From positions 1-64,000 of the forward strand of contig CAMWQM010000009.1 in assembly GCA_947176375.1 (NCBI GenBank): a stretch of DNA of 64,000 nucleotides, given 5' to 3'. The translations under genes were made by a program, and so were the position numbers. Shown one piece after another: positions 24,051-44,525 of this stretch. The stretch comes from an uncultured Helicobacteraceae bacterium. GTDB taxonomy: Bacteria > Campylobacterota > Campylobacteria > Campylobacterales > Helicobacteraceae. Every line of letters starts with the position of its first letter. Within the stretch, counting starts at the first letter, position 1. The notes beneath the pieces were generated by a model. That model saw nothing but the letters and a program-made list of their open reading frames with translations, did no database searches and was not told the origin of the DNA.

Positions 24051-25709
24051 TCAATCTCTTAAAGATTCTAATTGTTTATTTAGCTTTAAAATCTCATTTC
24101 CTATTTCATTTATTTTTCTAAATTTTTCTTTTGTCCCATCTTTAAAATTAAGCGGAAGCTCAATGTCGTATAAATTATTTATATTAATAGAGTTTTTGTC
24201 AGTCTGCTCATATATCTCGCTTAAAATTTCTTTTGCTTTTTTAGAAAATAAAAAGCAATAAAGCCCAATAGCGTCCCCTTTATTTTTAGCCCTAATGATT
24301 AATATTCCAGCATTTGCAATCATAGGGGAGCTGCTTTCATTTACAATTGTAATCTTTGGGATAATTCCGCGAAGCGAGAGTAATATATCATAAGGATGTA
24401 GTTTGTATCTCTGTATTTTATCGCTATCACCGATGCTTTCTTCAATCTCTGTATGGTTTATAAAACCATATTCATTAAAGTTTACTATCCCTATATTTAT
24501 GTATTTTTGTGATTGAGAAGTTTTCGCACTGCCAACTCTCTGCCCTCTTATAATCTCTACATCTATGCTTTTTATTGTTTGCGTGTGTTTGGTGATATGC
24601 TTTTGCTTTAAGTAGTTTTGTGCGCGTAAGTCGTTTATATCAATATCTTTTAGATTTGTTAGTTTTGAATATTTTGTGGTTTTTTTGTTTTTTAGGATCT
24701 CTAAAATAATGTCCATTTTTGTGAGTTTATTATACTTTCCTTCTTTTGTGTAAAAACTTGAGGCATCAATATGCAAAATGCTAGAATTATTTTTTGAAAG
24801 CACCATAATTGAAAAATCAGAGCTATTATGTGGAAAAATATTGCTAGGCAGCTCAATTATTGCTTCAATTAACATCTTTTTACATAGAATTTCTTTGAAT
24901 TTCTCTTCAACGGAGGTCTTTTTTAGAAGTTGATTTCTTATGATAAAAACGCCTTTATCTTGTAAATATGAGATTCCATTGATTATAAAACTTAATTCCG
25001 AGGCAGATTTGGTGATAAGCCCATATTGTGCAAATCGCTCATTTTTCTTTAAATCCAGGATTCCTATATATGTATCAATAGGTGGATTGCAGATAATTTT
25101 ATTAAACTTACGATTTGGCGGGAAAATTTGATTTTTAAGAATATTATTTACATAGAGATTGTTTGAATCTATATTTAGTGTTTTTAGTATAAGTTTTGCC
25201 ACTCTATCAAGGCTAGAATCTAATTCTTCTCCATAAATACTAAAATTTTTCTCTACTTGTGCTAGGGCTAAAAATAAGCTGCCAATACCATAGCAAGGAT
25301 TGTAAATCTCATCATTATCTTTTATATCTAAAATCTCCACAATAAGGCTATTTATCTCCATAGGAGTGGAGTATGGGTAGAGCTTATTTATTGTTTTTTT
25401 CTGTGTGATTGTATCTATTAGTAGTTCAATTTGTTTGCTTGTGGGCTTTATTTCGTTAATTGTTCGTAGTATTTTGATTATATTCACATTTTTATTTGGC
25501 TTTACATATAAATCACCAAGAAGATTTGCCATAATAAAATTAAAGTCATCAAATATTGCTTTGCGTTTTTTTGCTTTGTTTAGAAGTTCGGTTATTTTAT
25601 CTTTTTCATAGATTCTAAGTGAAATTATTCCAAGCAATATGCAAAGTGTATCTATAATATCAGAATGGTATCTTTTTAAGTAGTTAAAAATAACTAGCAT
25701 TTGTTGCAT
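24051..25709 (-). CDS. Orphan HsdM-like N6-adenine methylase with S-like C-terminus, altered catalytic motif
   Basis: A 552-residue protein. Residues 1-100 are helical, like the HsdM N-domain. The SAM-binding motif is EIYNPCYGIGSLFLAL (GxG at 141-143), and the catalytic motif IV is C-N208-P-P-I211, where active enzymes have NPPF or NPPY. A C-terminal region from about 375 (VEIIRGQRVGSAKTSQSQKY; PYDILLSLRGIIPKITIVN) resembles one target-recognition half of HsdS. The last 40 residues are a coiled coil (RKINEIGNEILKLNKQLESL). No restriction subunit lies nearby. The frame is fully open, so it is under selection or recently altered. It may be a weak or non-catalytic methylase. Confidence 0.7.
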   Translation of the reverse strand: MQQMLVIFNYLKRYHSDIIDTLCILLGIISLRIYEKDKITELLNKAKKRKAIFDDFNFIMANLLGDLYVKPNKNVNIIKILRTINEIKPTSKQIELLIDTITQKKTINKLYPYSTPMEINSLIVEILDIKDNDEIYNPCYGIGSLFLALAQVEKNFSIYGEELDSSLDRVAKLILKTLNIDSNNLYVNNILKNQIFPPNRKFNKIICNPPIDTYIGILDLKKNERFAQYGLITKSASELSFIINGISYLQDKGVFIIRNQLLKKTSVEEKFKEILCKKMLIEAIIELPSNIFPHNSSDFSIMVLSKNNSSILHIDASSFYTKEGKYNKLTKMDIILEILKNKKTTKYSKLTNLKDIDINDLRAQNYLKQKHITKHTQTIKSIDVEIIRGQRVGSAKTSQSQKYINIGIVNFNEYGFINHTEIEESIGDSDKIQRYKLHPYDILLSLRGIIPKITIVNESSSPMIANAGILIIRAKNKGDAIGLYCFLFSKKAKEILSEIYEQTDKNSININNLYDIELPLNFKDGTKEKFRKINEIGNEILKLNKQLESLRD

Positions 25710-25839
25710 ATCTATATCCTAGCAAGTAGATTGGGTGTAGAATTATATAACTTTTTGTTTTAAACTTAATAAGAAAAAAGCAAAGAAGTTTTGTTTTAAC
25801 TTTAATAAATTAGAATAGTGATTTTTAGCTATATTTTGT
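25710..25839. other. Upstream region of the orphan methylase
   Basis: This short AT-rich stretch should carry the methylase promoter on the minus strand. No feature is evident. Confidence 0.3.
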
Positions 25840-26195
25840 TCAAATCTAGCCTAATTTACTTAAATATTTAGAGAAAATGGTAGTTTTATTATAAAAATTT
25901 GATTAATTATGATATGGATAATAATATAGAATCTAATATCAATCCTTTGAAATCTAACAAAATGAATTTTACTTTAAAAGATTCTAATTATTCCATTTTA
26001 GAATCCAAAATAGGATCTAATAAATATTTAGATTTTAATTCTTTTAATTCCATAGATTCTAATTTAGATTTTAATCTTAAATCTAATCATTTGGAATCTA
26101 ATAATAGCTTTAATAACATAAAATATTTAGATTCCAACAATAGATTAAAAACTAAATCTAATAAGCTAGGATCTCAAGTAGATTCTGCAATGTAG
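25840..26195 (+). pseudogene. Autotransporter passenger-linker fragment
   Basis: The DNA at about 25867-25935 (TTTAGAGAAAATGG, then TTTTATTATAAAAATT, GATTAATTATGATATGGATA) closely matches the coding strand of the intact autotransporter around 35222-35275. That region encodes FRENGRFYYKNSINYDMDTN. A frame from 25899 continues INYDMDNNIESNINPLKSNK and runs as Asn/Ser/Lys/Asp-rich low complexity to a stop at 26193-26195. It is opposite in strand to the intact gene. Neither a signal peptide nor a barrel is present, so it is a broken paralogue or a duplicated fragment. Confidence 0.7.
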
Positions 26196-26238: not shown

Positions 26239-26429
26239 CTTTATGCACAGCTATTGGAACTTCAAAAATACTATTTAAGATATTTTATAATTAGTAGCTT
26301 ATCTTTTTCATCTAAAAAATAAATCTGCCTACTCATTGCTTGATTTTAAGCTAGCTATTCAAAGTCCCCATATTCAAGTGGTTTGCCAAAAATTAAATCT
26401 TTTGAGGCAGTTTTATTTAAAATGGAATC
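26239..26429. repeat. 191-bp inverted repeat, left copy
   Basis: By direct comparison this stretch is the exact reverse complement of 33490-33680. It contains the last 25 codons or so of pseI (26355-26429) and the sequence beyond its stop. It borders a fragment of autotransporter DNA, as the right copy borders the intact autotransporter. Confidence 0.93.
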
Positions 26430-27542
26430 TATCATTTTTGGTGGAAGTCCTGCATTTGGGCGAATTGATTTGATATTTTCTAAACTCAATTTTTCACCTT
26501 TTTTAATATTTTTACTTACAAAGAGACTTCTTGCAAACACCCTGCCTTTAATATTTTCACTATCTTTGAGATTTATATTTTTTATTTCTATTTCAAAATC
26601 ACTCTCCCCTAGCGCGGTTTCTGTCTCTCTAATATCTCTAACTAAAGCACTAAATTCGTTCATATCAAGGCTAAAGCTAGAATCCACTCCACCAAATTTT
26701 TTATTCAAAATGAAATGTTTTTCAATCACACTCGCCTTTAGGCTAGTGGCGATAACAGCTGCTCTATTCCCTAGAGTATGGTCGGATAAGCCATAACTGA
26801 CATCAAATTTTTTGCCAAGTGCTACCATTTGAGCAATATTTGCCTCACTTAAATTTGCAGGATAGGCACTAGTGCATTTAAGTAGTGTAATATCCGGGAA
26901 TGAGGCTAAATCCCACTGACAATCAACACTCATAGAATCTAAATTCCTACTTTTATCTCCACTTTGATTATATTCAGATTCTAAGTTTTTCTCTAAATTC
27001 ATATTTTGCTTTGAATCTTGCTTCAAATCAAAACTTTTAGTGGAATCTGCATTTCTTCTTACTTTTCTAATTGCTTCTATTGCCTCTTGCAATTCGCTTA
27101 ATTGCGCAATCCCACTTGAAAGGATAATAGGTTTATTCTTACTTGCGATATATTTAATCAAAGGGATATCGGTTATTTCAAAACTAGCAATCTTGTAAAG
27201 CGGATTTTCAAGACTCTCTAGCAAATCCACTCCTGCCATATCAAATGCTGAACTAAAACAGCAAAGATTAATTTTCTTAGCTAAACTAAAAAGCTCTTCA
27301 TTCCATTCTAGCGGCATATACGCCTCTTTGTATAAATCATAAAGATATTTATTATCCCACGAAGTGCCACCTTTGATTTTAAAAATTTCACTTTTGCAAT
27401 CTAGTGTTAGACTATCTGGCGTATAAGTTTGAAGCTTAATTGCGTCTGCTTTGCATTCTTTTATTGCATATAAGCTCTCTTTTGCAAGGCTTAAATCTTT
27501 ATTATGATTTGCACTCAATTCTGCTACAATAAAAACTCCCAA
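26355..27542 (-). CDS. pseI: Pseudaminic acid synthase PseI (NeuB family)
   Basis: Condenses a dideoxy-diacetamido-altrose with phosphoenolpyruvate to make pseudaminic acid, used to glycosylate flagellin in this group. The 395-residue protein has the NeuB TIM barrel: FIVAELSANHNKDLSLAKES, ADAIKLQTYTPDSLT, FSSAFDMAGVDLLE, YKIASFEITDIPLI, YGLSDHTLGNRAAVIA, and VIEKHFILNKKFGGVDSSFS. A C-terminal SAF/antifreeze-like domain (RSLFVSKNIKKGEKLSLENI) follows. Residues about 162-215 are an insertion of low-complexity Ser/Lys/Asp/Asn sequence not usual in the family. It lies 19 bases after pseH. Its 3' end is duplicated at 33490. Confidence 0.9.
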   Translation of the reverse strand: MGVFIVAELSANHNKDLSLAKESLYAIKECKADAIKLQTYTPDSLTLDCKSEIFKIKGGTSWDNKYLYDLYKEAYMPLEWNEELFSLAKKINLCCFSSAFDMAGVDLLESLENPLYKIASFEITDIPLIKYIASKNKPIILSSGIAQLSELQEAIEAIRKVRRNADSTKSFDLKQDSKQNMNLEKNLESEYNQSGDKSRNLDSMSVDCQWDLASFPDITLLKCTSAYPANLSEANIAQMVALGKKFDVSYGLSDHTLGNRAAVIATSLKASVIEKHFILNKKFGGVDSSFSLDMNEFSALVRDIRETETALGESDFEIEIKNINLKDSENIKGRVFARSLFVSKNIKKGEKLSLENIKSIRPNAGLPPKMIDSILNKTASKDLIFGKPLEYGDFE

Positions 27543-27561
27543 AATAGCTCCTTTAGATAGA

Positions 27562-28443
27562 TTAATGGATAGATTCTAGCATTGATTTTGAATGCAGTGT
27601 CAAAATCTCTATATCAATAAATGTATTATCTCGCCTGACTGCGTCTTTTAAACTTCCACAATATTTAAAATTATGCTTATAATAAAATTTTAAAGCCCTT
27701 TTGTTTGTGGATAACACTTCCGCAAATAAGATTCTTAAATTTAACTCACTAAAAGCGATACGCCACAATACCTCAAATAAATGGCTACCAATACCCCTAA
27801 ATTTAGGATTAGCATAGATTCCAAAATAAGCGATTTTATTTATTAAATCAATTCTATTAAAACAAACAACACCTAGAATCTCATCTCTAAAAGCATTAAG
27901 AGAGGAATCTAAATTAGTATCTAGCGGATAATTGAAGGAGGATTTTAAAGAAGAATCTATGGAGGAAACTATTTTGGATTCCGCTTTTAAAATAGGTTTT
28001 GCTTTGGAAGCTGAGTCTATACTAGGCTTTATAGAATCTTCTAAATCTTTTTGAAAAATCATAGAATCTATTTTAAAATCCATTTTAGAATTTGCATTTA
28101 AAGAATATTCCATTTTATTAGATTCTACTTTTTGTGTGAAATGTATTTTTTGGCTAGATTTTACATTTAGCAAATTAAAAGCATTTTTATCAATATTTTT
28201 ATTTTCCATACTAGATTCTACTTTGGAATCTATAAGCTTAAGTGCATAATAAGCCCTGTTGCTAGCACTCTCTAGGTTTTCAATAAATCTAAAATGCTCT
28301 TTTTGTCCTATCTTCCTATTTGTAAGCATAAAATCTCTAATATTTCTATCATTGCGTAAATCTAGCACTTCCAGGCTTTCCTGCCTATTTAGATTGGTAA
28401 AATTAATTGCAATTAAATTTTTAAATATGAAATTCTCTGCCAA
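27562..28443 (-). CDS. pseH: GNAT acetyltransferase, PseH-like, with a large low-complexity insertion
   Basis: Acetylates the 4-amino group of the UDP-altrosamine precursor in pseudaminic acid synthesis. The family is about 160-180 residues; this chain is 293. The N-terminal part has NDRNIRDFMLTNRKIGQKEH and FRFIENL. After residue 73 there is an insertion of about 110 residues made of DSK/ESK/SSID-type repeats. The fold then resumes at about 186: EILGVVCFNRIDLINKIAYF, GIYANPKFRGIGSHLFEVLW (acetyl-CoA loop) and EVLSTNKRALKFYYKHNFKY. Its neighbour pseI supports the role. Whether the insertion is tolerated as a loop must be tested. Confidence 0.82.
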   Translation of the reverse strand: MAENFIFKNLIAINFTNLNRQESLEVLDLRNDRNIRDFMLTNRKIGQKEHFRFIENLESASNRAYYALKLIDSKVESSMENKNIDKNAFNLLNVKSSQKIHFTQKVESNKMEYSLNANSKMDFKIDSMIFQKDLEDSIKPSIDSASKAKPILKAESKIVSSIDSSLKSSFNYPLDTNLDSSLNAFRDEILGVVCFNRIDLINKIAYFGIYANPKFRGIGSHLFEVLWRIAFSELNLRILFAEVLSTNKRALKFYYKHNFKYCGSLKDAVRRDNTFIDIEILTLHSKSMLESIH

Positions 28444-28531
28444 AAAATATCCTTAAATTTATCAATTTAATAAGCCAATAAACTTACAAACTAATAAACC
28501 AAACTCTGCATTTAACATTTATTTAATACTT

Positions 28532-29536
28532 CTACCACCTAGTAACTGCGATTCCAATGCCAATTTTATGGCTTAAAATATTATACTCAAAAAGATTATC
28601 ACCATAGCCATAGAAATACTGCGCATATAGAGAGATTCCGCTATCAAATAAATCATATTTATATTCAAGTCTTATACTCCCTTTGTATTTCGCATAATTA
28701 TGAAATAAATTGCCAATATTTAGAATAAAATGATGGTCTTTATACAAATCATAAGTCAGCCTCAAACTACTATAGCCAAGATAACTATCAACATTTATAG
28801 GATCTTTTCTTAAGAACGTCCACGCTTTTAGTGCAATATCAAGATTCCAAATATCCTCATTGCCAATCCTATACATTATATCAGCAAAGATTCTATCAAT
28901 TCCGCGTGACTTTTTAAAACCAACTTCATCTATTCCCTCGCCATTTGAAATATGATTGTAGCCTAAGCGGACATTATAAAGCTTCCCACCCCAAAAATGC
29001 ACATCTAATGGGCGATAGGCTATAAGCTCTGGAATAAAATCATTATCCCTAAATGGTGATGAGAGGATAGGGGCATAGATTTGAAAAAATGAAGTTTGAG
29101 TATATGCAAAATATAGTCCAATATTCGCAAATATATTTTCAAAAATCAAAGTCTTAAAACTAACTTGAAGTTTTACTTCTGCCTTGCTATACTCTCCTGC
29201 AATAGAATCTACTGGATAATATGGCTTTCTAAATGAATAATAAATAGGCAAAACATAAGTCTCTTCATTCAAAGAAAATCTATTAATTATACTTTGCATT
29301 AAACTTACATCATCATTCTTAAAATCCTTAAACTCATAGTCAATTAGATTCTCACTATTTTTAATCTCATTATTATTTGCGATATTTTGATTGCTAGATT
29401 TGCTTGTATTTTTTTTAGATTCCAAAGTTTGATTTTCATCTAAATTAGCATTATTGTAATATATTGAATCATTAGCATTTAAAGATAAAATAAAAGCCCC
29501 AAAAAATATCGAAAATAGCTTTTTAAAACTAATCAT
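28532..29536 (-). CDS. pldA: Outer-membrane phospholipase A (OMPLA/PldA family)
   Basis: A 334-residue protein with signal peptide (SFKKLFSIFFGAFILSLNAN), a Ser/Asn-rich stretch to about 75, then a 12-stranded barrel. The catalytic signature is present as GYNHISNGEGID (H195, S197). The partner segment, usually SRSWNR with the catalytic Asn, reads KSRGIDR, giving Asp214 where Asn is expected. The ending IGIGIAVTRW is a barrel C-terminal strand. OMPLA hydrolyses phospholipids in the outer leaflet and forms active dimers with calcium. Asn-to-Asp exchange may lower activity. The gene is on its own, divergent from glmS. Confidence 0.82.
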   Translation of the reverse strand: MISFKKLFSIFFGAFILSLNANDSIYYNNANLDENQTLESKKNTSKSSNQNIANNNEIKNSENLIDYEFKDFKNDDVSLMQSIINRFSLNEETYVLPIYYSFRKPYYPVDSIAGEYSKAEVKLQVSFKTLIFENIFANIGLYFAYTQTSFFQIYAPILSSPFRDNDFIPELIAYRPLDVHFWGGKLYNVRLGYNHISNGEGIDEVGFKKSRGIDRIFADIMYRIGNEDIWNLDIALKAWTFLRKDPINVDSYLGYSSLRLTYDLYKDHHFILNIGNLFHNYAKYKGSIRLEYKYDLFDSGISLYAQYFYGYGDNLFEYNILSHKIGIGIAVTRW

Positions 29537-29614
29537 ATTTTAACCTAAAACATATTTTTAATTAGATAAAATCCGAATTTTACCTAATTTTACTTAATAT
29601 TTGGAGAAATGTTT

Positions 29615-31399
29615 ATGTGTGGTATCATAGGCTACATAGGCGACAAAGAAAAGAAAAAGATTATTATTGAGGGATTAAGAGAGCTTGAATATAGAGGCTA
29701 TGATAGTGCTGGAATATCTGTTTTTAGCGACAATGAATTGCATTCTTTTAAAACTACAGGAAAATTAATCAATTTAGAAAAAAAATGTGAAAATTTTAGC
29801 TCATCTGGCTTTGGGCTTGCCATAGGACATACTAGATGGGCTACGCACGGAAAAGCCACTGAGATAAATGCACACCCACATAGTGCGGAATTTAGCAATA
29901 TTGTTCACAATGGAATCATAGAAAACTACGCTATTTTAAAAAAAGATTTAGAAAAAAAAGGACATATTTTTTTAAGCCAAACAGACACGGAAGTAGTTGT
30001 GCATTTATTTGAGGAAAATTTGCTTCATTTAAAAGATTCTACACTTGCATTTAAAGAAACGATAAAGGCTCTAAAAGGTTCTTATGCAATTCTATTAATC
30101 ACAAAAAAAGAAAATGATAAAATCTTTTATGCTAAAAATGGCTCACCGCTAATAATTGGTACAGATGGGAGTGATATATATTTTGCCTCATCATCCACAC
30201 CTTTAATTGGGCTTGTAAAAGATGTTTGTTATTTGGAAGATGGTGAGGTAGGCTATATGGATAAAAATAATTTTAAAAGCCTAAAAAATATCATTCCATT
30301 AAGTGGCACAAAGATTTCTTCGCAAAAAGATGGTTATAGGTATTTTATGGAAAAAGAAATTTATGAGCAACACAAAGTCTTGCAAGATACTATATCAAGC
30401 AGAATCTTGGAAGATAAAATAGAGCTAAATTTGCCAAAAGACTTTCTAAAAGATATTAATTCAATCACCATCTGTGCTTGTGGGACGAGCTATCACGCAG
30501 GATTGAGTGCAAAATATATTTTTGAGCGAGAAGCAAAAATTAAAACAGATGCGATAATAGCAAGTGAATTCCGCTACTCAAATCCCATTATGCGCAAAGA
30601 TGAACTTTTCATTGTAATTTCACAGAGTGGCGAGACAGCTGATACACTAGAGGCACTTAAGCTTGCAAACAAAAATGGTCTTAAAACTCTTGCGGTTTGC
30701 AATGTGGAAAATAGCTCTATGGTTAGAGAGGCAAAGTATAGCCTTTTAACTCGTGCGGGCATTGAAAAAGGTGTAGCCTCTACAAAAGCCTATGCAACAC
30801 AGGTTATGCTACTTTGGATTCTAGGAATCTATATAGCAGAGATTAAACAAAGCATTTCAAAAGAAAATATCAAAAAACAAATAAAAAATATGAATGAGGC
30901 AATCAAAGCCACTATGATTAATCCAAAGATTCACGATAGACTTAAGAAACTCTCAAAAAGGTATTTGCATGGACACGGATTTTTCTTCATTGGTAGAGAT
31001 ATTTTCTATCCGTTGGCATTAGAGGGGGCATTGAAGTTAAAAGAAATTAGCTATCTTCACGCAGAGGGTTATCCGGGCGGAGAAATGAAACATGGTCCAA
31101 TAGCCCTAGCAGATAGTGAGCTTTTTACAATATCTCTAATGCCAAAACACTTACTTTTTGATAAAATAAAAAGCAATACAGAAGAGCTAGCAAGTAGAGA
31201 TGCAACAATTTGTGCCATAAGTCAAGAAATAATTGACATAGCTGATGATATGGTTTTAATTGATAAATTTGATAGTTATATGGAGGAATTTTTTGCAATG
31301 ATGATAGTTTTACAGATTCTAGCGCTCGAGGTTGCTATAAGACTTGGCAATGATGTTGATATGCCGAGAAATTTAGCAAAAAGTGTAACGGTTGAATAG
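29615..31399 (+). CDS. glmS: Glutamine-fructose-6-phosphate aminotransferase (isomerising)
   Basis: Makes glucosamine-6-phosphate from fructose-6-phosphate and glutamine, the entry to peptidoglycan and LPS amino sugars. I choose the ATG at 29615, six bases after an earlier ATG, because the catalytic cysteine must become residue 1 (MCGIIGY) and GGAGA is well spaced. The N-terminal glutaminase domain has GHTRWATHG and HSAEFSNIVHNGIIENY. The two SIS domains have CGTSYHAGLSAKYIF, ISQSGETADTLEAL and ASTKAYATQVMLL. The C-terminus is MPRNLAKSVTVE. The length (594) is normal. A diguanylate cyclase gene follows within 15 bases. Confidence 0.97.
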   Translation: MCGIIGYIGDKEKKKIIIEGLRELEYRGYDSAGISVFSDNELHSFKTTGKLINLEKKCENFSSSGFGLAIGHTRWATHGKATEINAHPHSAEFSNIVHNGIIENYAILKKDLEKKGHIFLSQTDTEVVVHLFEENLLHLKDSTLAFKETIKALKGSYAILLITKKENDKIFYAKNGSPLIIGTDGSDIYFASSSTPLIGLVKDVCYLEDGEVGYMDKNNFKSLKNIIPLSGTKISSQKDGYRYFMEKEIYEQHKVLQDTISSRILEDKIELNLPKDFLKDINSITICACGTSYHAGLSAKYIFEREAKIKTDAIIASEFRYSNPIMRKDELFIVISQSGETADTLEALKLANKNGLKTLAVCNVENSSMVREAKYSLLTRAGIEKGVASTKAYATQVMLLWILGIYIAEIKQSISKENIKKQIKNMNEAIKATMINPKIHDRLKKLSKRYLHGHGFFFIGRDIFYPLALEGALKLKEISYLHAEGYPGGEMKHGPIALADSELFTISLMPKHLLFDKIKSNTEELASRDATICAISQEIIDIADDMVLIDKFDSYMEEFFAMMIVLQILALEVAIRLGNDVDMPRNLAKSVTVE

Positions 31400-31413
31400 A
31401 TAAGGAGGATAAA

Positions 31414-33384
31414 ATGTTTTTTATTAGGCTTAAAGTGATAATTTTATCAATAATTATTTTGGTTGGAATGTCTATTTTCTTGCTCTATAAAGTAGATTTA
31501 TATATTAAAAATCGTTCTGTTGATTTGCTTGCATCACAATTAAGCAGTATTACTAAAACTGCATTTGATATTGCAAGCATCACAGGACTTGGGGTAACTT
31601 CTCATACTTATGAGATAATAAACACTGCAAAAAATCAAAAAGAATTAAAAGATTTATGGATTAGCAGAAGTGATATTTTAAGCGAAGATTTAAATAAATC
31701 TAAAAGCACACTTAGAGATGCACTAGAGCGAAAAGTCTATGTAACAAAAACACAAGAAAGAGATATTAATAAAATAGAAGGTTCAAACGACCATACAGCT
31801 AGAATCTCCATTCCCATTATTGCTAATGATAATTGTATAGTTTGCCACATTAATGTGAAAGCAGGCGAGATTGTAGGAAGTGTGAATGCGGAATATAACT
31901 TGCAAGATAGCATAAGAACGATATATGAGACTATGAAGCTGGATTTCTGGGCGATTATAGCTGTCGCTTCGCTAATATTTATGTTTGCAATGATGATGAG
32001 TATTAGCTCAGCTACAAAGATTATAAATAGGATTAGAATTGCACTACAAGGGGCAATCAATGGTGATTTCAAACTTAGGGTAAAAGATACAGGGCTTGAA
32101 ATATCAAGCGAAATTAGTAAAATAACAAACAGACTCCTAGAAACACTAGATAGAAATGTAAGTGCTATTGATGTGAAAATCTCATCTTTATTTGTTTATA
32201 ACAAAAGCCTATATAATAAAAACCCATTAATTAGGCTAACAGAGTTAGTAAGCGAGTTGGCAAATTTATTTTCATTTAAGAATAAATTAGATAGTTTCCG
32301 CCAAGTAAGCGAGATTTATAGAGAATTGCAAATTACAATATCAAAATACATAAAATATAAAAGTCTAATATTTGCAGAATTCATCAATGGTGAGATTACA
32401 AGCGGATATAAAGTAGAAAATGGCACAGAAATGAAAGTCAGTGCAGGTGAGATAAAAAGAATTGAGGAACGTTTCAATAAAGAGAATCTAAATGTTTTAT
32501 TTGACGATAAAAAAGGCTGTATTTTTATTTCAACTTCAATAGATAGTCTAAATGTGATTGATTTGAAAGTCTTTGTGTCGGATAAAATTATGCTTTATTA
32601 TTCGATATTGTTTGGTTCTAAAAAAGAATTACAAGAGAAAGAAAAAAGCATTAGTAGAATCTACAACTACATACGAGATGCAAAGCCTATGATAAACAAT
32701 GTTTTCCTAGTAAAAAGCATTGAGGAATCTTCATATACAGATCCGCTCACAAAAGCTTATAATAGATTCTATCTTGAAAAATACGCACATAGCGTGGAAG
32801 ATAAGGTTAGCAAAAACATAAATTATGGAATCTTAATGATAGATATCGACCATTTCAAAAGAGTAAATGATACTTATGGGCACGCTGTTGGGGATATGGC
32901 TATTGTGCTTCTAGTTGAGACTATAAGAAATGTTATAAAAGCTAGTGATAAGGTTATTAGATATGGTGGAGAGGAATTTGTAGTGATTTTGGATAATTGC
33001 GATATAGAAGATACATACAAAGTCGCTGAACGATTAAGAAACTCATTTGCTATGGCAAAACAAAGCTCACTTGGCACAATAGATTTTAAAAAGTCTATTA
33101 GTATTGGAATTTCTTCTATGCCTGAATTTTCACGCAATGTTTGGGAATGTATAAATCAAGCGGATTTAGCCCTATATGATGCAAAAGAAAGTGGTAGAAA
33201 CAGAGTTATAAAATATTCTCTTGATTTAAAAGCAAAAGATGATGAAAAGAAAGCAAGGGAAGAGAGAGAAGAGCGAGAAAAAGCAAAAAAAGATAATGAC
33301 TATACTACCACCACTATACTTGGTAATGATGATGATGACGATGATGACTTTTTGGAGAGTTTAAAATTAAATAATTTAATTTAA
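31414..33384 (+). CDS. Membrane diguanylate cyclase with a periplasmic CxxCH sensor domain
   Basis: A 656-residue protein. TM1 (about 7-25) and TM2 (about 178-198) flank a periplasmic domain holding C141-I-V-C144-H145 in ANDNCIVCHINVKAGEIVG. This is a c-type haem attachment motif of the kind seen in Tll0287/DUF3365-like sensors. A HAMP-like linker (INRIRIALQGAINGDFKLRV) and an unassigned region (about 260-440) follow. The GGDEF domain spans about 450-605 with GGEEF at 518-522 and DIDHFKRVNDTYGHAVGD. The inhibitory RxxD site appears as KASD, so feedback control may be weak. The C-terminal tail is charged, ending in an Asp run. The gene is coupled to glmS. Confidence 0.88.
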   Translation: MFFIRLKVIILSIIILVGMSIFLLYKVDLYIKNRSVDLLASQLSSITKTAFDIASITGLGVTSHTYEIINTAKNQKELKDLWISRSDILSEDLNKSKSTLRDALERKVYVTKTQERDINKIEGSNDHTARISIPIIANDNCIVCHINVKAGEIVGSVNAEYNLQDSIRTIYETMKLDFWAIIAVASLIFMFAMMMSISSATKIINRIRIALQGAINGDFKLRVKDTGLEISSEISKITNRLLETLDRNVSAIDVKISSLFVYNKSLYNKNPLIRLTELVSELANLFSFKNKLDSFRQVSEIYRELQITISKYIKYKSLIFAEFINGEITSGYKVENGTEMKVSAGEIKRIEERFNKENLNVLFDDKKGCIFISTSIDSLNVIDLKVFVSDKIMLYYSILFGSKKELQEKEKSISRIYNYIRDAKPMINNVFLVKSIEESSYTDPLTKAYNRFYLEKYAHSVEDKVSKNINYGILMIDIDHFKRVNDTYGHAVGDMAIVLLVETIRNVIKASDKVIRYGGEEFVVILDNCDIEDTYKVAERLRNSFAMAKQSSLGTIDFKKSISIGISSMPEFSRNVWECINQADLALYDAKESGRNRVIKYSLDLKAKDDEKKAREEREEREKAKKDNDYTTTTILGNDDDDDDDFLESLKLNNLI

Positions 33385-33489
33385 TTTTTAGCATTTCTTT
33401 AGTGAATTTTGGAATTTAGATTCTATGCTTTTGATTAAAGTTTTAGATTCTAGATTCTGCTTTTTTAAGTGCAAATTAGTTTGTGTTTG
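33385..33489. other. Short gap after the cyclase gene
   Basis: AGATTCT motifs at about 33418, 33447 and 33454; no gene. It leads directly into the right copy of the 191-bp repeat. Confidence 0.3.
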
Positions 33490-33680
33490 GATTCCATTTT
33501 AAATAAAACTGCCTCAAAAGATTTAATTTTTGGCAAACCACTTGAATATGGGGACTTTGAATAGCTAGCTTAAAATCAAGCAATGAGTAGGCAGATTTAT
33601 TTTTTAGATGAAAAAGATAAGCTACTAATTATAAAATATCTTAAATAGTATTTTTGAAGTTCCAATAGCTGTGCATAAAG
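33490..33680. repeat. 191-bp inverted repeat, right copy
   Basis: Exact reverse complement of 26239-26429. It encodes, on the plus strand, the last residues of PseI (LNKTASKDLIFGKPLEYGDF) without the rest of the gene. The start of a broken small gene at 33583 follows. The identity stops abruptly at both ends, so the duplication or gene conversion is recent. Confidence 0.93.
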
Positions 33681-33802
33681 ATAAATACTACAAAAATGAT
33701 AAAAAAGATTTTAGATTACTATCAAATTCATTTTTACCTCTTTTAAAATTCACAAGGTGTGTATCAAGGGGCGATTTTATTGCTGTTACAAAGAGAGTTT
33801 GA
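33583..33802 (+). pseudogene. Small unidentified gene, frameshifted
   Basis: An ATG at 33583 opens MSRQIYFLDEKDKLLIIKYL and stops. Skipping one base, the frame resumes SIFEVPIAVHKDKYYKNDKK, then SFLPLLKFTRCVSRGDFIAV, and stops at 33800-33802. One extra base therefore breaks a chain of about 72 residues, probably the N-terminus of a longer protein. I do not recognise the family. The first part is repeated in the left inverted copy, downstream of real pseI. Confidence 0.5.
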
Positions 33803-34034
33803 TAAAAAGTATTATTTTTATCCTAAATAGGATGGTTAAATCTAACTAATACTCTATAAATTATTATTTTAGGTTTAGAACACTCTCCAAATTCCCTGCT
33901 TCCTAAACTCCAATCTAACTTTCATTCCCAACCTAGAATTCAAATATCTATTTTTCTTCTTTTCTTGTAATATTCTTATGTTTGCAGTCTATACTAAAAT
34001 CTTTATTATTTTATTAATAATTTCATTTTATCAT
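33803..34034. other. Gap between the right repeat and the autotransporter
   Basis: About 230 bases, AT-rich. No gene or clear terminator was seen for the minus-strand autotransporter. Confidence 0.3.
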
Positions 34035-36347
34035 TTACCACCATACCCTAACATTAAAGAATCCACTATTGCTAATACTCTTATCTCCAAAGCTTCCTAG
34101 ATATTCAAGTCCTAGCTCCACTATATCATTAATTGCATAATTTACTCCAACATTTGCATATCCACTAAATCTATCTATCCCAATACTATATTCTATATTA
34201 TTATTTAAAAGTATAATGTTAGCTATAGGTTTTGTTAAAAGTACATTTCCTCCAAGTCCTAAATCAAATCCAAAGCCATTACTAAAAGAATTAGAATAAT
34301 TAAGCCCTAGATTGATATATCCTAGAAGAAGTAGATTTTTATTATATATTTCATTACCAAAGTTTATAGCTTCATTTTGAAGTCCATTATAATTAGCCCC
34401 AATCTCTAAAGTTAAGATCCCATTTCTCTTAAAATCAAAGTCTTTTCCAAAGTAACCACTTGCACCAAATCCAAAGTTCTTAGGAGACTGCTTTAATCCT
34501 GCATAACTCATATCATTTAAAAAATAAAAGACATCACCCCTAAGTTTTACAAATATATCATAAGCTAAATCTAATTTATAATGAAGTCCAGCCATTATAT
34601 TAATAGTATTTAGATTTGTGCTAAATTCACTCTCACTTAAACTTCCATAGCTAAAACCAAGATGAACTCCTAGTGTATTTAAATTTCCTAACTTTGCATT
34701 AAATCCACTTATAAAGCCATAATCTAATCCAGAATAATTAAGCCCATCATTGTAAAACATATTATGACTAATAAATGGACTAAAGAAAAAGTGGTATTTA
34801 TCACTAGAGCTTTGAGTTTGAATATTTCTAAAATTATTATTTGTTTGAGTTATATTGTTTAGATTATTTGTATTATATCTATTTGGTATATTAATTTGAT
34901 TTTGTGCTTCAGTTTTAATTCTAGTATTTATTTCATAATTTTTACTTAACTCATTATTTATTTTATTGCTATTAGTATTTAATTCTCTCGTATTTAGTTC
35001 ATTTACTCTGGCTCTCCTTACTCTATTTTCTTTTTTAGTATTTGTTTTTATATTATCTACTAGAAGTAAAGGAATGGGAGTTTTATTTACTAGATTATTT
35101 GAGGCATTATCACTTAATATTGTATTGGTTATATTATTAGTATTATTGAAAGAATTGGATTCTAATGTTTCAGATTCTGCATTATTAGAGTTTAAATTAT
35201 TATTAGATTTTATATTAGTATCCATATCATAATTAATCGAATTTTTATAATAAAATCTCCCATTTTCTCTAAACTTATAAGCTAGATATTTAGGATTAGA
35301 TTCTATTTTATTAGAATTATTTAGAGCAAAGTTTCCTTTATAGCTTTTAGTTTTAGCATTAAAGATTACAAAATTTGATTTAAAAAGTAGATTATTAATA
35401 TTTGATATATTGCTTTTATAGATCGTATTTCCTGCACTATTTAATCCATCTATATTAACTCTAAAGCTATTCGAAGTATCTCCTCTTTGAAGGGTGTAGA
35501 TGGGGGAGGAGGATGTAAGATAATTAAACAAATTATTAGTAGAGATGTTATTGTTACTAGAATCTTTTATTCCATCAGTACTATTATTACTATTTACTAT
35601 TAATTTATTGAGTAAATAATCTTTGTTTAATTCAAAGTTGTTACCAAAGTCTAATATAATTGCTTTATTATTGTTTAGTTTTAGATAACCATTACTATTT
35701 GCTGTATATACCAAATGGGAATCATCATATCCACTACTAGTATTATTAAATGTGTTTGCATCTTTATTTAAAGTTATTTTATATTTATCTATACCAATGT
35801 AATTACCATTAATGCTTAAATATCCTTTAATTGTTCCTAAATTAATTAAATGTTCTATCTTGCTATTATTATCAGTCTGTATGACATTGCCATTGCCATT
35901 GCTATTGTCATTTATTATTTTGCCATTATTTATAAAATAATTTATAGTGCTATTTTCTATTTTTATAGTTATATGATTTGAACCACCACCATTAATTTCA
36001 TTATTATTAGTAAAGGAGTTTAAATCAGTTTGAAAAGTAAAGCGAGAGTCAGTGCTTCCTACATTGGTTGTTATTTTTACATTATTAGTAATAGAATATT
36101 TGTTATAAGTGCTGTCGATTGTAAAACTCATACTATCAGGTTTGCTTTGATAATCAAGCTTTATTTTATCTATTACACAAGTTTTATTAGCACTATTGCA
36201 AGTTGCATATTGGCTTAAATCCTCGGCACCAAGTAGATCCTCCCCCCCCCATATAAATAATAAGTAAAATATTAAAATAGAATTTTTGTTAAAACTGCTA
36301 TTTTGTTGTAATTCCCTTTTTTCATTCAATTCTTTAGCATTTAACAT
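34035..36347 (-). CDS. Autotransporter with outer-membrane beta-barrel, phase-variable
   Basis: A 770-residue protein. The N-terminus has an extended signal (NSILIFYLLFIWGGEDLLGA) in which the Gly pair and flanks are encoded by a G9 tract. The frame is currently open through the tract. The passenger (about 45-380) is rich in Asn, Ser and Thr with short repeats (NGNVIQTDNNSKIEHLINLG), as in beta-helix adhesins. A disordered Asn/Thr/Glu/Arg linker (about 380-505) follows. The C-terminal barrel (about 515-770) begins YHFFFSPFISHNMFYNDGLN and ends SISNSGFFNVRVWW. The barrel secretes the passenger to the surface. A fragment of a second copy lies at 25.8-26.2 kb. Confidence 0.87.
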   Translation of the reverse strand: MLNAKELNEKRELQQNSSFNKNSILIFYLLFIWGGEDLLGAEDLSQYATCNSANKTCVIDKIKLDYQSKPDSMSFTIDSTYNKYSITNNVKITTNVGSTDSRFTFQTDLNSFTNNNEINGGGSNHITIKIENSTINYFINNGKIINDNSNGNGNVIQTDNNSKIEHLINLGTIKGYLSINGNYIGIDKYKITLNKDANTFNNTSSGYDDSHLVYTANSNGYLKLNNNKAIILDFGNNFELNKDYLLNKLIVNSNNSTDGIKDSSNNNISTNNLFNYLTSSSPIYTLQRGDTSNSFRVNIDGLNSAGNTIYKSNISNINNLLFKSNFVIFNAKTKSYKGNFALNNSNKIESNPKYLAYKFRENGRFYYKNSINYDMDTNIKSNNNLNSNNAESETLESNSFNNTNNITNTILSDNASNNLVNKTPIPLLLVDNIKTNTKKENRVRRARVNELNTRELNTNSNKINNELSKNYEINTRIKTEAQNQINIPNRYNTNNLNNITQTNNNFRNIQTQSSSDKYHFFFSPFISHNMFYNDGLNYSGLDYGFISGFNAKLGNLNTLGVHLGFSYGSLSESEFSTNLNTINIMAGLHYKLDLAYDIFVKLRGDVFYFLNDMSYAGLKQSPKNFGFGASGYFGKDFDFKRNGILTLEIGANYNGLQNEAINFGNEIYNKNLLLLGYINLGLNYSNSFSNGFGFDLGLGGNVLLTKPIANIILLNNNIEYSIGIDRFSGYANVGVNYAINDIVELGLEYLGSFGDKSISNSGFFNVRVWW
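36242..36250. repeat. G9 tract (C9 on plus strand) in the autotransporter signal region
   Basis: Nine G on the coding strand make TGG GGG GGG GAG (Trp-Gly-Gly-Glu) at about residue 33-36. The frame is in register in this assembly, so the gene reads ON. One base gained or lost would end translation soon after. Confidence 0.88.
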
Positions 36348-36578
36348 ATTTCCCCCATTTGTATGTGTTTTAATTGTATGTTTGGTAAATAATTATGCTA
36401 GATTCAAACAAAATATAGCTAAAAATATCATTAAATTAAGTTTGAAATTATTTTTAAATATAAAAATAGTGGATTGGTATTTCTAAACTTTGAAGTTTAT
36501 AAAATTATTAAAACAATAAAAATATAAAAACCACAAGAGGAATCTTACTTAAAATATTAAGCAAGATTATTTTATGGG
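36348..36578. other. Region between dsbI and the autotransporter gene
   Basis: About 230 bases without a gene. It should contain the minus-strand promoter of the autotransporter. No clear regulatory site seen. Confidence 0.3.
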
Positions 36579-38093
36579 CTATTTTAGCGTATATAGCCTG
36601 TTTTCACCATTTTGATAAGACATAATTTTAAAAGTATCATTATCTATAATCAAAGCCCTTGCATTAGTGATTTCACTAGGAAAGCTAATGATATTTGTAA
36701 TTTCCTCATTTTTTATATCAATTTCTGCAATCACATTATAATTCTTACTCAAGGCATAAATCAACCCATTGTGGTAAAACATAGAAGTTACATATAGCTC
36801 ACCCAAATTCCTATCATCTTTTAGATTCGCCTTTGGAGTGAATTCAGCAGATAAAGTCCTGTCGTTTAATAAAAATTTGCTTATCACAAAGTTTTTCTTG
36901 TCTTTATTATTTGGCACAGTTGAGAGATAGAAATATTTAGAATCTCTTGTCATTCCCATAGTGTGATGAAATTTAGAGCGAATCGTATCAAGCCTACCTC
37001 TACCTAGTCCATTTCCTTGTCCCTCAAAGCGTGAAGCACCCTCTATAAAGTCAGCATATTGCAATGCCTCATTAGCATTAGGATTCTTGCCAAATCTAAG
37101 CAGAGTTTTATTTGAACCCATTAGCATAAATTTATCTTCCAAATATGGAATCACACCAATAATAGGGTCGATAGTTGCAGAAAAATATGGGTCGATTTGT
37201 AAATAATCACTTTGCTTAAAATCATTATCCAAAAAATAAATATTAAATTTAGAGCTAGCAACCCACTCACCATTGATATAATTTAGGCTATTTAGTGGCT
37301 TATCTATGCCAATTGCACTAGAAACTGTTATTTTTAATTGTTTATCTATATTTTTAAATGGAGATTCGTTGCTATTATTGTTAAACGAGATTCCTAGTTT
37401 TGTGGCAGGGGCAAATGCGTAGTCTGGCGACTTCACATCTCTTTTACCTAGAAATGAAAGATTTTGCCAATTTCCTTTCCAGCCATCAGTGCTCCAAATT
37501 ATATATTTTGGATTTAAACTAAATCTAACTGGGTCTCCTTGTCCTAAATATGGTGGAATTCCTGTGGATACGAATGCTTGAAAAATGTTTGATGCGATAA
37601 TAAAGCCACAAATCACAAATGAAGTTAGCGTAAAACCACTAAATTTGCGGAATTTTTCGCCTCTTAATTCATTCTCCAAAGAGCTTAATTTTGGAGCAAA
37701 GAAAAACATAATTCCTAGCAAGACAATCACAGCCCAAAATACAACTTCAGCCCAGAAATATGTGTGGATTCCAAATACTGCCAAACTAAAGCCCTGGTCT
37801 AAATCCCTCATAGCGTGGTTTCCAAAATGTGCGAAAGATTGATATAATCCAAATGCTGTGATTATCAAAATAGCAGCGATATATTTTGCCTTTAGCCCAT
37901 AGCGCACGATAAATAATGCAATCACACCGATAAAAATCATAGATTCCCGCTGTCCCCAACATAAATAACAAGGACTATCGCCTAGCACATATCCAAAAAT
38001 AATATTAGCAATCCCAACTGGCAGTAGTATGATAAGCAGTGCTGCAAGGCATATTAAGTTATAAAATAGCTTTGCTTGTTTTATTTCATTCAT
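36579..38093 (-). CDS. dsbI: Disulfide oxidoreductase DsbI (DsbB-like with C-terminal propeller domain)
   Basis: A 504-residue protein. Residues 1-180 hold five or so membrane helices with the DsbB redox pair C42-x-x-C45 in DSPCYLCWGQR. Residues about 200-504 form a periplasmic domain with repeating strands (YIIWSTDGWKGNWQNLSFLG; RSKFHHTMGMTRDSKYFYLS; LGELYVTSMFYHNGLIYALS), likely a beta-propeller. DsbI passes electrons from periplasmic Dsb proteins to quinone. In C. jejuni it pairs with Dba and acts on a subset of substrates, including arylsulfate-transfer-related proteins. Here too the small dba gene precedes it by nine bases. The length matches the epsilonproteobacterial form. Confidence 0.92.
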   Translation of the reverse strand: MNEIKQAKLFYNLICLAALLIILLPVGIANIIFGYVLGDSPCYLCWGQRESMIFIGVIALFIVRYGLKAKYIAAILIITAFGLYQSFAHFGNHAMRDLDQGFSLAVFGIHTYFWAEVVFWAVIVLLGIMFFFAPKLSSLENELRGEKFRKFSGFTLTSFVICGFIIASNIFQAFVSTGIPPYLGQGDPVRFSLNPKYIIWSTDGWKGNWQNLSFLGKRDVKSPDYAFAPATKLGISFNNNSNESPFKNIDKQLKITVSSAIGIDKPLNSLNYINGEWVASSKFNIYFLDNDFKQSDYLQIDPYFSATIDPIIGVIPYLEDKFMLMGSNKTLLRFGKNPNANEALQYADFIEGASRFEGQGNGLGRGRLDTIRSKFHHTMGMTRDSKYFYLSTVPNNKDKKNFVISKFLLNDRTLSAEFTPKANLKDDRNLGELYVTSMFYHNGLIYALSKNYNVIAEIDIKNEEITNIISFPSEITNARALIIDNDTFKIMSYQNGENRLYTLK

Positions 38094-38102
38094 AATTGCT
38101 CC

Positions 38103-38270
38103 TTAAAGATTCATAATAGTTAAGAATGCACTTGACTTGTGTCCTGCATACATAAACACCATTATAACCCACGAAATTATCACTAAATTAAAAGCTAGTT
38201 TCTCTTTCTGCGGCTTTTTCATAATCAAAATCACAGAAATCAAAATTAGCACTAATTCTAAAAATTCCAT
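38103..38270 (-). CDS. dba: Dba, small membrane partner of DsbI
   Basis: A 55-residue protein beginning MEFLELVLILISVILIMKKP and ending AGHKSSAFLTIMNL. It has one or two hydrophobic helices separated by KKPQKEK. An AAGGAGATG ribosome site precedes the ATG. Its position directly upstream of dsbI on the same strand is that of dba in Campylobacter and Helicobacter. It has no cysteine, so it cannot be a redox carrier. In C. jejuni, translation of dba and dsbI is coupled and the two proteins are needed together. It is easily missed because of its size. Confidence 0.85.
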   Translation of the reverse strand: MEFLELVLILISVILIMKKPQKEKLAFNLVIISWVIMVFMYAGHKSSAFLTIMNL

Positions 38271-38614
38271 TTCATCTCCTTAAAAATTAAAGTTGCGAAT
38301 TGTAATAAAATATAAATTAATTTTTTTATTTTAGTTTAATATTTATTGCCAAATATTTGATGAGTGGTAGATAGTGAATGAGTTATTATAAAGGCATAGG
38401 TGTATCTATGAAAGCTTTAATAGTTTAAATACAAATTGTGGAATCTAAAAAAGTATTTTTAGATTCTAATTCTTAAGCATTAAAACCAGAAATCTTTATT
38501 TATTTTTAATTAATAGAGGTGTCTTTATAATATTTGCTTTAGATACTATTTTGAGTTTAAGATTCTGCAATCTTTAGTATTTAAATGCTTAAATTTTAGT
38601 AATTGTTTGGAGTT
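38271..38614. other. Intergenic region upstream of dba
   Basis: 344 bases holding the dba-dsbI promoter (minus strand). AGATTCT at about 38460. No gene. Confidence 0.35.
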
Positions 38615-39340: not shown

Positions 39341-39376
39341 TTGCTAATTACTAGAACTTTTTAAATGTGCCAGACT

Positions 39377-40884: not shown

Positions 40885-42567
40885 TTAATGAGCTTGTGGT
40901 ATCAACCAAGGAATCCAAAATGCAATTGCATATGTAAAGATTCCAATAATTATTACAAAAATTATAGAGTATTTAACCGTGAATCTAAATAGCTCGCTCT
41001 CTCTTCCTATCAGTCCAACCGCTGCACACGCAATCGCAATACTTTGAGGGCTTATCATTTTTCCTACAACCCCACCCACAGAGTTTGCCGCAAGGAATAA
41101 GACCTCAGGGATTCCAAGCTGTCTTGCTGTAACTTGTTGTAATGTGCCAAATAGTAGATTCGAGCTTGTATCACTTCCTGTTAGGAATACACCAATCCAG
41201 CCAATTATAGGTGAGAAGAATGCAAAGGCATTTCCTGTGCTAGCTAATGCTATTGCTAGAGTTGCCGAGCTCCCACTATTATTTGAGATAAATGCGAATC
41301 CGACAACTAATGCGATAGTTAGGATTGCAAATTTCATTTCATTTAGAGTTTCGCCAAAAGTTTTAATCGCAGTGCTAACCTTTACTTTGAGTAATACCAT
41401 AGTTAATAAAGCAACTACAAATATCGAAGTTCCAGTAGCATTTATAATAGATAGATTAAATACTGCTTTTACAGGAGCATCTTTAACTACGACAGGGCTA
41501 ACTTGCACGATTTCAGCAAGTGAGCTAAAATTGAAATTAAATACACTAAATGCCATAATCCCAGCTTCTGCCGCTTTGCTTCCATCGCTTAATTTACCAC
41601 CCTCTAGCACAAATAAATCTTTAAACCAGCCTTGCGTCCAAACAATAATAGCTAATATTAATAGCACAAAGGGTAACCAAGCAAGGACAATCTGTCCCAT
41701 TGTATAACTATGTTTGCTTATTTCTATTTCTTTATCATCGCTAAATTTAAAGATATTTTTTGGTTGCCAAAATCGTAGAAATATTGCAACTGCTGCGATT
41801 GAAGCGACTGCTGATGCAATATCAGGAAGCTCAGGTCCAAGATGTGTAGCGGTTATAAACTGCACTATCGCAAAGCTTCCACCAGCTACCAATGCCACAG
41901 GCCAAGTTTCTTTCACACCTTTAAAACCATTCATTAAGAATATTAAGAAAAATGGCACAAAAAGCGAGAGTGGAGGAAGCATATGCCCAGCCATTGCCGA
42001 AATATCTTTAGCAGGAACGCCAACTGCTCCAGACATTGCAATAATCGGAATCCCAACTGCTCCAAATGCAACCGGAGCGGTATTTGCAATCATACAAAGT
42101 CCAGCTGCATAAAGTGGGCGAAGCCCTAAACCAACAAGCAGAGCCGCAGTGATTGCCACAGGTCCGCCAAAGCCTATTGCACCTTCTAAAAACGCACCAA
42201 AGCAGAATCCTATTAGTATAACTTGAATCCTTTGATCTGGTGTAATTGCGATGATTGATTCTCTTAAAATATCAAAATAGCCGGATTTTACGGTTAGCTT
42301 ATATAAGAAAATTGCTGCAATAATAATCCACGCAATAGGCCACAAGCCATATAAAGCACCATAAACTAAGCTCAATGCTGCTTTATCAAGTGGCATTTTA
42401 TACATAAAGATTGCAACAAGTGTAGCCAAAATAACGGTTAGAAGCCCTGCAATATGTCCCTTAAGCTTAAAAACAACAAGTGATATGAAAAAACAGGCTA
42501 TTGGAAGAAGTGCTACTAATGCACTTAACCAAATATTGTTTAATGGGTCATAGTTTTGAGTCCACAT
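40885..42567 (-). CDS. lctP: L-lactate permease (LctP/LldP family)
   Basis: A 560-residue polytopic transporter with about 13 membrane segments, proton-linked uptake of lactate or glycolate. Family features: NIWLSALVALLPIACFFISL at the start, EGAIGFGGPVAITAALLVGL, the conserved ANTAPVAFGAVGIPI, then LGPELPDIASAVASI and FLTGSDTSSNLLFGTLQQV near the end. Helicobacters use lactate as an energy source, and H. pylori has two tandem copies, whereas only one is seen here. The gene is monocistronic, with about 240 bases on its 3' side before coaBC. Confidence 0.93.
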   Translation of the reverse strand: MWTQNYDPLNNIWLSALVALLPIACFFISLVVFKLKGHIAGLLTVILATLVAIFMYKMPLDKAALSLVYGALYGLWPIAWIIIAAIFLYKLTVKSGYFDILRESIIAITPDQRIQVILIGFCFGAFLEGAIGFGGPVAITAALLVGLGLRPLYAAGLCMIANTAPVAFGAVGIPIIAMSGAVGVPAKDISAMAGHMLPPLSLFVPFFLIFLMNGFKGVKETWPVALVAGGSFAIVQFITATHLGPELPDIASAVASIAAVAIFLRFWQPKNIFKFSDDKEIEISKHSYTMGQIVLAWLPFVLLILAIIVWTQGWFKDLFVLEGGKLSDGSKAAEAGIMAFSVFNFNFSSLAEIVQVSPVVVKDAPVKAVFNLSIINATGTSIFVVALLTMVLLKVKVSTAIKTFGETLNEMKFAILTIALVVGFAFISNNSGSSATLAIALASTGNAFAFFSPIIGWIGVFLTGSDTSSNLLFGTLQQVTARQLGIPEVLFLAANSVGGVVGKMISPQSIAIACAAVGLIGRESELFRFTVKYSIIFVIIIGIFTYAIAFWIPWLIPQAH

Positions 42568-42765
42568 TTTATCTCCTCAAATTAAAATTCAGTAATTTTT
42601 AAATCAATAAGGTGAAATTATAAAATAAAAAGGATTAATTGAATTACTAAAATCTGCATTTATAATTAATAATTTGTTACGAAATGGAATTTTTATCTAT
42701 AAGCAAGAATTTTAAAAAAATTTAAGATAGAATCTCATATTTTATATTATTATAAAGGCAAATAT

Positions 42766-43233
42766 ATGAGATTAGAATCTAATCAATCAGCTCCACAATT
42801 TAGCGCTAAAAATCAAAATGATGAGAAAGTTTCTCTAAACGATTTTAAAGATAAATTTATAGTTTTATATTTCTATCCGAAGGATATGACAAAGGGTTGC
42901 ACGATAGAGGCAAATGAATTTAGCTCATTATTTGATGAGTTTGAAAAGCTTAATGCCATAATTATTGGCGTTAGCCCAGATAGTATAAATTCACATCAAA
43001 AATTTATCAAAAAAGAGAATCTGAAGCATATTTTATTAAGCGATGAGGATAAAACTATTTCTAAATTATATGGTGTTTGGGAAAAGAAAAGTATGTATGG
43101 CAGGGAGTATATGGGGATAGTTCGCTCTACTTTTATAATCAAAAATAGAGTGATTTTAGAAGCATTATATAATGTAAAATCGAGTGCTCACGCACAAAAA
43201 GTGCTTGATATTCTAAAAAAATATGCAAAATAA
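42766..43233 (+). CDS. bcp: Thioredoxin-dependent peroxiredoxin, Bcp/PrxQ type
   Basis: A 155-residue enzyme that reduces hydrogen and organic peroxides. The peroxidatic cysteine sits in FYPKDMTKGCTIEANEFSSL (about residue 45). The active-site Thr and Arg (RSTFIIKNRVILE) are kept. There is no resolving Cys at the +5 position (CTIEA), so it may be a one-cysteine form using an external thiol. The length is typical. The downstream threonine exporter genes begin 12 bases later, so the three may be one transcript. Confidence 0.9.
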   Translation: MRLESNQSAPQFSAKNQNDEKVSLNDFKDKFIVLYFYPKDMTKGCTIEANEFSSLFDEFEKLNAIIIGVSPDSINSHQKFIKKENLKHILLSDEDKTISKLYGVWEKKSMYGREYMGIVRSTFIIKNRVILEALYNVKSSAHAQKVLDILKKYAK

Positions 43234-43245
43234 AAATTACACAAA

Positions 43246-44028
43246 ATGAGAGCTGGACGAGTAGAGATTCAGGAACTTACAGATTTTTTAATGGAATATA
43301 CCATTAGTTTATTATCTGTTGGCTCATATACTTCTAGAGTTGAAAAGTGCGTTACAAGGATAGCAGTTGCATTTGGCTATGAAGTGCATATTTCTATATT
43401 TTCAAAGAATATCACAATTAGTGTAGTAAGCCCAGAAGATTACTCAATTAGAAGGACTTATGTAAGAGGTTACAAAGATAGTATCTTAAATTTTAATCTA
43501 ATCTCACTTTTAAGTGGTTTATCGTGGTATGCCTATGATGAGAAAATCACCTTTTCGCATTTAAAAAAGCAGTATGAAAAAATTATGAATAAGACTAGAT
43601 ATAGCTTTATTGGCATATTGATTTTGCTTTGTTTTGCAAATGCTGCATTCTGTAGACTTTTTGGTGGAGATTTTGGCTCTATGCCTATTATTTTCGTCTC
43701 AACATTTGTAGGAATTAATTTAAGGAGATTCCTAACAAAACTAAATGTAGATATGAGAGTAATTTTTGTGATATGTGCTTTTGTCGCTTCAATGGTGGCG
43801 TATGGTGGGACAATGCTAGGATTTACAAAAACACCTGATGTAGCAATAGGAACAAGTGTGCTATTTTTAATACCTGGAGTGCATCTAATAAACTCTGTGA
43901 TTGACATATTGGATGGTCATTCACTAATTGGCGTATCAAGAGTTATTAGCACGATAATTTTAATCTCTTGCATAGCAATAGGTTTATATATCACACTTAG
44001 CTTTTCTGGCATTAGAATGGAGTATTGA
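43246..44028 (+). CDS. Threonine/serine exporter, ThrE N-terminal-domain protein
   Basis: A 260-residue protein of the ThrE (DUF1212) family. A cytoplasmic N-terminal region begins ELTDFLMEYTISLLSVGSYT and SRVEKCVTRIAVAFGYEVHI. Five membrane helices follow, including FLIPGVHLINSVIDILDGHS. ThrE-type exporters move threonine or serine out of the cell. Here the transporter is split into two proteins, as in several bacteria, and the next gene encodes the second half. The stop codon overlaps the next start by one base (TGATG). Confidence 0.85.
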   Translation: MRAGRVEIQELTDFLMEYTISLLSVGSYTSRVEKCVTRIAVAFGYEVHISIFSKNITISVVSPEDYSIRRTYVRGYKDSILNFNLISLLSGLSWYAYDEKITFSHLKKQYEKIMNKTRYSFIGILILLCFANAAFCRLFGGDFGSMPIIFVSTFVGINLRRFLTKLNVDMRVIFVICAFVASMVAYGGTMLGFTKTPDVAIGTSVLFLIPGVHLINSVIDILDGHSLIGVSRVISTIILISCIAIGLYITLSFSGIRMEY

Positions 44029-44525
44029 TGCAAGTTATTGTATCTTCATTGATTGATGGAGGATTTGCAGCTATTGCTGGGTTAGGCTTTGCGTATGCGT
44101 GCAATCCTCCTATAAGAACTCTTTTTATATCTGCATTTCTTGCTGCAATCGCACATGCTTTTAGATTCTATCTTATGCAGCTTGATTTTGGAATTACAAG
44201 TGCCACATTTTTTTCTGCATTTATTGTTGGAATCTTGGGATTGATATTTGCAAAGAAAGTAAAATGCCCGACAGAAATAATCACATTCCCTGCGATTTTA
44301 CCTATGATTCCAGGAATGTATGCGTATAGGACGATTTTATCAATTGTTTCATTTTCACAAGAAAATAACACAGAATCACAATACAAGCTATTAATTGAGC
44401 TTACAAATAATCTAATAACCACAATTTCTGTAGCGCTTGCCATAGCAGTTGGAATCTCACTTTCATTATTAATATTTTATGAGCATAGCTTTATGATGAC
44501 TAGAAAGAGTTTTAAGGTGGATTAA
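44028..44525 (+). CDS. Threonine/serine exporter, ThrE C-terminal-domain protein
   Basis: A 165-residue membrane protein of the DUF3815/ThrB-like half. It has five helices, with PPIRTLFISAFLAAIAHAFR and CPTEIITFPAILPMIPGMYA near the middle. The PxxPGxxxYR segment after the ITFPA helix is typical. The ATG at 44028 is preferred over a TTG three bases before, and it overlaps the upstream stop. It would assemble with the preceding protein. A stem-loop follows the stop. Confidence 0.85.
   Translation: MQVIVSSLIDGGFAAIAGLGFAYACNPPIRTLFISAFLAAIAHAFRFYLMQLDFGITSATFFSAFIVGILGLIFAKKVKCPTEIITFPAILPMIPGMYAYRTILSIVSFSQENNTESQYKLLIELTNNLITTISVALAIAVGISLSLLIFYEHSFMMTRKSFKVD

Follow-up and report, generated by a model that had tools for sequence, protein, structure and literature searches.

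Identical inverted repeats of 189 and 518 bp have been described in Helicobacter pylori, where they were attributed to illegitimate recombination (PMC3046158). The exterior borders of such repeats differ within a strain, and the repeats are found at the borders of inversions, with many of them also occurring where there is no inversion (PMC3046158). DNA duplication associated with inversion has likewise been reported for H. pylori (Furuta et al. 2011, as cited in PMC3120642, PMC3154945 and PMC4671568). In Drosophila, inverted duplications at inversion breakpoints are reported to arise by staggered breaks (PMC5080602 and PMC4965816).

We analysed a stretch of 64,000 nucleotides from an uncultured Helicobacteraceae bacterium (the window), in which an inverted repeat encloses genes for pseudaminic acid synthesis, a phospholipase, GlmS and a diguanylate cyclase. 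The features of the locus are as follows.

25821..25960, forward strand: autotransporter relic, consisting of an upstream tract (25821-25856) and a passenger tract (25859-25960), recognised by sequence comparison
26239..26429, reverse strand: left arm of the inverted repeat (191 bp), running without a break into the whole pseI gene, from sequence comparison
26355..27542, reverse strand: pseI, pseudaminic acid synthase with NeuB and SAF domains and a low-complexity insert, from domain matches
27562..28443, reverse strand: pseH, GNAT acetyltransferase interrupted by a long insert of low complexity, from domain matches
28532..29536, reverse strand: pldA, phospholipase A1 with a PLA1 domain, from domain matches
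29609..31399, forward strand: a gene that we take to be glmS from its sequence, with 76-80% identity to its counterparts in four congeners by sequence comparison
31414..33384, forward strand: GGDEF diguanylate cyclase, following pldA-glmS in all four congeners, from a domain match and gene order
33385..33489, no strand: spacer from the cyclase gene to the right arm, a gene-order break relative to three congeners, from comparison
33490..33680, forward strand: right arm, identical to the left, from sequence comparison
34035..36347, reverse strand: intact autotransporter-like gene, with a Pfam beta-domain match below the curated cut-off
40885..44525, no strand: block lctP-42766-43246-44025, displaced and inverted here, from comparison

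The left arm equals the reverse complement of the right arm at 191 of 191 positions, and comparison of the flanks revealed a sharp loss of identity at both ends. Thus, the perfect repeat with abrupt limits that a sequence-only reading of this DNA had reported was borne out. The distance from arm to arm is 7060 nt. Searching the whole genome (1.8 Mb in 37 contigs) yielded exactly two copies, the third match being just 26 bp long. No other perfect within-contig pair of at least 50 bp was present in the 437 kb examined, comprising stretches from contigs C1, C6, C9, C17 and C25 and including the whole window. The next-best repeats in this set were a 166-bp tandem repeat (96%), a 73-bp autotransporter pair (93%) and a 71-bp contig-end pair (94%). 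This shows that the 191-bp identity is far beyond chance and that the pair does not belong to a dispersed family. With two copies only, and with the end of pseI as its content, the repeat does not have the properties of an insertion sequence or mobile repeat. The two inverted copies bound a single segment, one at each end, as in DNA duplication associated with inversion.

Each arm comprises the final 75 nt of pseI including the stop codon, followed by 116 bp of downstream DNA. The earlier reading had also placed the pseI 3' end in both copies and the gene in the left one only, and this agrees with our comparison. The left arm continues into the whole gene and the right arm holds a truncated end; at the inner boundary, the left copy is therefore the original and the right copy is derived. 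A scan of genome contigs with PseI found distant relatives only. Beyond the arms, the exterior borders share no significant similarity apart from the autotransporter relic. An open stretch with a broken frame (33583-33799) crosses the outer limit of the right arm. We considered it as a gene remnant crossing this boundary, which would have revealed the original context, and rejected it: its codon score is background-like, no homologue was found in 121 genomes of the family, phages or plasmids, and it had no Pfam or NCBIfam match.

The case matches the H. pylori type in its identity, its size and its location at gene-order breaks, and identical arms, similar size and differing exterior borders are common to both (PMC3046158). 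It differs in residing in another genus-level lineage, in involving the end of pseI, and in that inversion of the segment was not seen in the comparison genomes (four congeners). With the type of Furuta et al. (2011), as described in the papers citing it, the locus shares that a piece from one border reappears inverted at the other and that an outer-membrane-type gene adjoins; here, however, the perfect copy is short and contains no whole gene, and inversion of the segment would be conjectural. The Drosophila staggered-break case likewise has duplicates in inverted orientation bounding a segment, but it is eukaryotic and was established against uninverted arrangements.

To place the repeat in its genomic context, we compared gene order with the four congeners (G001-G004), whose block proteins are 38-80% identical. 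Relative to all four, the locus is rearranged. Each congener carries pseF-pseG-pseH-pseI with a convergent fur-like gene after them. In the present genome, pseF-pseG are on contig C1, the fur-like gene is on C25, and pseH-pseI adjoin pldA. The genes pldA, glmS and the cyclase gene are together in all four congeners, with pseI and the cyclase gene far apart. In G002, G003 and G004 the four-gene block 44025-43246-42766-lctP begins 18-57 bp after the cyclase gene, and in G001 holA follows it. Here, the cyclase gene is followed by 105 bp and then the right arm. Both arms therefore lie at gene-order breaks, on the cyclase side relative to G002-G004 and on the pseI side relative to all four congeners. 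Operon-scale breaks in order are frequent in many places, so that the position of the arms at breaks lends weak support. Long stretches without recognised genes occur at C1:45387-46597, where pseH-pseI left pseG, at C9:66241-67535, between holA and an RNase-R-like gene, and at C25:11204-11850, beside fur; all three resemble decayed DNA left at former breakpoints.

We consider that the repeat is probably the scar of an inverted fragment duplication by illegitimate recombination during chromosome rearrangement. The chromosome would have been rearranged around the pldA-glmS-cyclase block, and the 3' end of pseI with its downstream DNA would have been copied, inverted, into the break beside the cyclase gene, through illegitimate recombination by way of break repair or template switching. 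This explanation draws on the exact identity, the presence of two copies, the truncated pseI in the right copy and the changed neighbour of the cyclase gene there. We infer that a single event brought about both the copying and the rearrangement, and likewise how it proceeded and that it is recent. The inner border starts with GATTCC, and the 105 bp that precede the right arm contain three further occurrences of GATTC. The pattern fits microhomology, but also the high frequency of this word in the genome. As a variant of the same explanation, an 11-kb inversion (33490-44525) would restore the adjacency of the cyclase gene and 44025, with the second copy of the repeat serving as templated filler only. 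A 33-kb inversion (33490-66240), prompted by the adjacency of cyclase gene and holA in G001, was dropped. The order and orientation of rpsR-rpsF-holA followed by the RNase-R-like gene, HDOD and ilvC, names that are in part presumptive, are the same in G002-G004 as here, with about 11 kb in between in G002-G004. Considering that this order is common to G002-G004 and the present genome, the arrangement in G001 is derived.

The sequence-only reading had further proposed that autotransporter DNA lies in mirror orientation beside each copy, and that a unit of autotransporter plus pseI tail was copied in inverse order. The mirror arrangement is real and the two pieces are on opposite strands; the left piece, however, is a decayed relic. 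Its upstream tract (36 bp) is 92% identical to the region upstream of the right-hand gene, and its passenger tract (about 102 bp) is 84% identical to the passenger of that gene. Both tracts are collinear with the right-hand gene, and their order, seen from the arm, is the same as there. The relic has no beta-domain, its divergence is clearly greater than that of the 191-bp repeat, and the DNA separating autotransporter sequence from repeat is not the same on the left as on the right. Its weak matches to other autotransporter paralogues of the genome identify the relic as a local relative of the right-hand gene in inverted orientation. Across the tracts there are about 15 differences in 139 sites; at this rate, the probability of zero differences in 191 bp would be about 3e-10, in a simple calculation that ignores selection and assumes one event of one age. 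This suggests either two events or later homogenisation of the 191 bp. Hence, the inverted duplication stands, with the pseI side as the original at the inner boundary, whereas the copying of autotransporter and pseI tail as one unit in a single event is doubtful given 84-92% against 100% identity. By these comparisons, the repeat and the autotransporter DNA do not simply form one recently copied unit.

The relic counts to some degree against a scar formed during rearrangement, as it also fits an older and longer inverted duplication of the autotransporter, downstream DNA and the pseI tail. The left copy would then have decayed, and recombination or conversion between the arms would have kept 191 bp identical. 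The far better fit of the relic tracts to the right-hand autotransporter than to other paralogues speaks for such a history, as does their order relative to the arm. However, the 354 bp between the right arm and the autotransporter gene have no counterpart on the left, and the difference between 84-92% and 100% identity requires an extra process. We regard this explanation as rather unlikely.

We examined inversion of the block in silico. Both pseI and the cyclase gene stay whole after the flip, and a RecA-type inversion between the arms could therefore take place without harm. It is improbable, in our estimate, that the arms recombine often, that both orientations are present in the population and that conversion keeps the arms identical while the autotransporter copies diverge. 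If true, this would be an inversion that requires no recombinase and keeps genes intact while changing the position of the pseudaminic-acid, phospholipase, glmS and cyclase genes with respect to the chromosome.

A further reading, in which frequent recombination between the arms makes the segment actively invertible, with the two orientations side by side and an effect of the flip on how the surface and sugar genes are expressed, is distinctly improbable. It would agree with the perfect arms, with the survival of pseI and the cyclase gene and with the report of H. pylori inverted repeats at inversion borders (PMC3046158). However, gene and domain annotation recognised no recombinase gene in the block or beside the arms, promoter- and terminator-like sites were no more frequent than in shuffled sequences, and the assembled record holds a single orientation. 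No Rfam family was found, nor a shared terminator or RNA within the repeat. With no recombinase recognised nearby and with pseI and the cyclase gene left whole by the flip, the locus does not have the features of a site-specific invertible element (phase-variation switch). Should the repeat be the scar of an inverted fragment duplication, its arms may still recombine, flipping or converting the block as a by-product and not as an evolved switch.

Mis-resolution of the repeat during assembly could also have given the 7-kb block a wrong orientation in the record. In two cases, a pair of contig ends has exactly 55 bp in common, which suggests a short-read assembly graph with k=55; read pairs alone would then probably have bridged a repeat of 191 bp, and the recorded orientation may depend on them. 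However, unique sequence flanks each arm on both sides within one contig, and a wrong choice would alter the orientation and not the existence of the repeat. We consider such a mis-assembly highly improbable.

Several further observations were made. Low-complexity inserts rich in LDS, LES or DSK interrupt otherwise conserved enzymes, namely PseI and PseH (26355-28443), the product of 53406-55205 and that of the RNase-R-like gene (C9:67536-69716, beyond the window). The near-palindrome AGAWTCT occurs at 885 sites in the 437 kb, compared with 103 expected from base composition, and TAGAWTCTA at 262 compared with 12. In frame, AGAWTCT encodes D-S or E-S, and the low-complexity inserts may be built from this word. 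GATC (183 sites against 1227 expected) and GASTC (88 against 374) are rare in the same set. The four congeners, in the stretches examined, are likewise enriched in AGATTCTA, within coding as well as non-coding sequence. AGAWTCT may act as an uptake or Chi-like word or be linked to methylation; a search of the literature for published links to it returned nothing relevant. The window also contains two separate N6-methylase-type genes, one at 24051-25709 that matches N6_Mtase and also, in part and below the curated cut-off, HsdM, the other at 46951-49137 with weak matches to defence methyltransferases.

By itself, the repeat disrupts no recognisable gene. Such rearrangement scars have already been described in H. 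pylori, and the present one is in a relative outside that species. The finding extends a type of rearrangement scar that in H. pylori was linked to gene birth and loss to a relative of Helicobacter.
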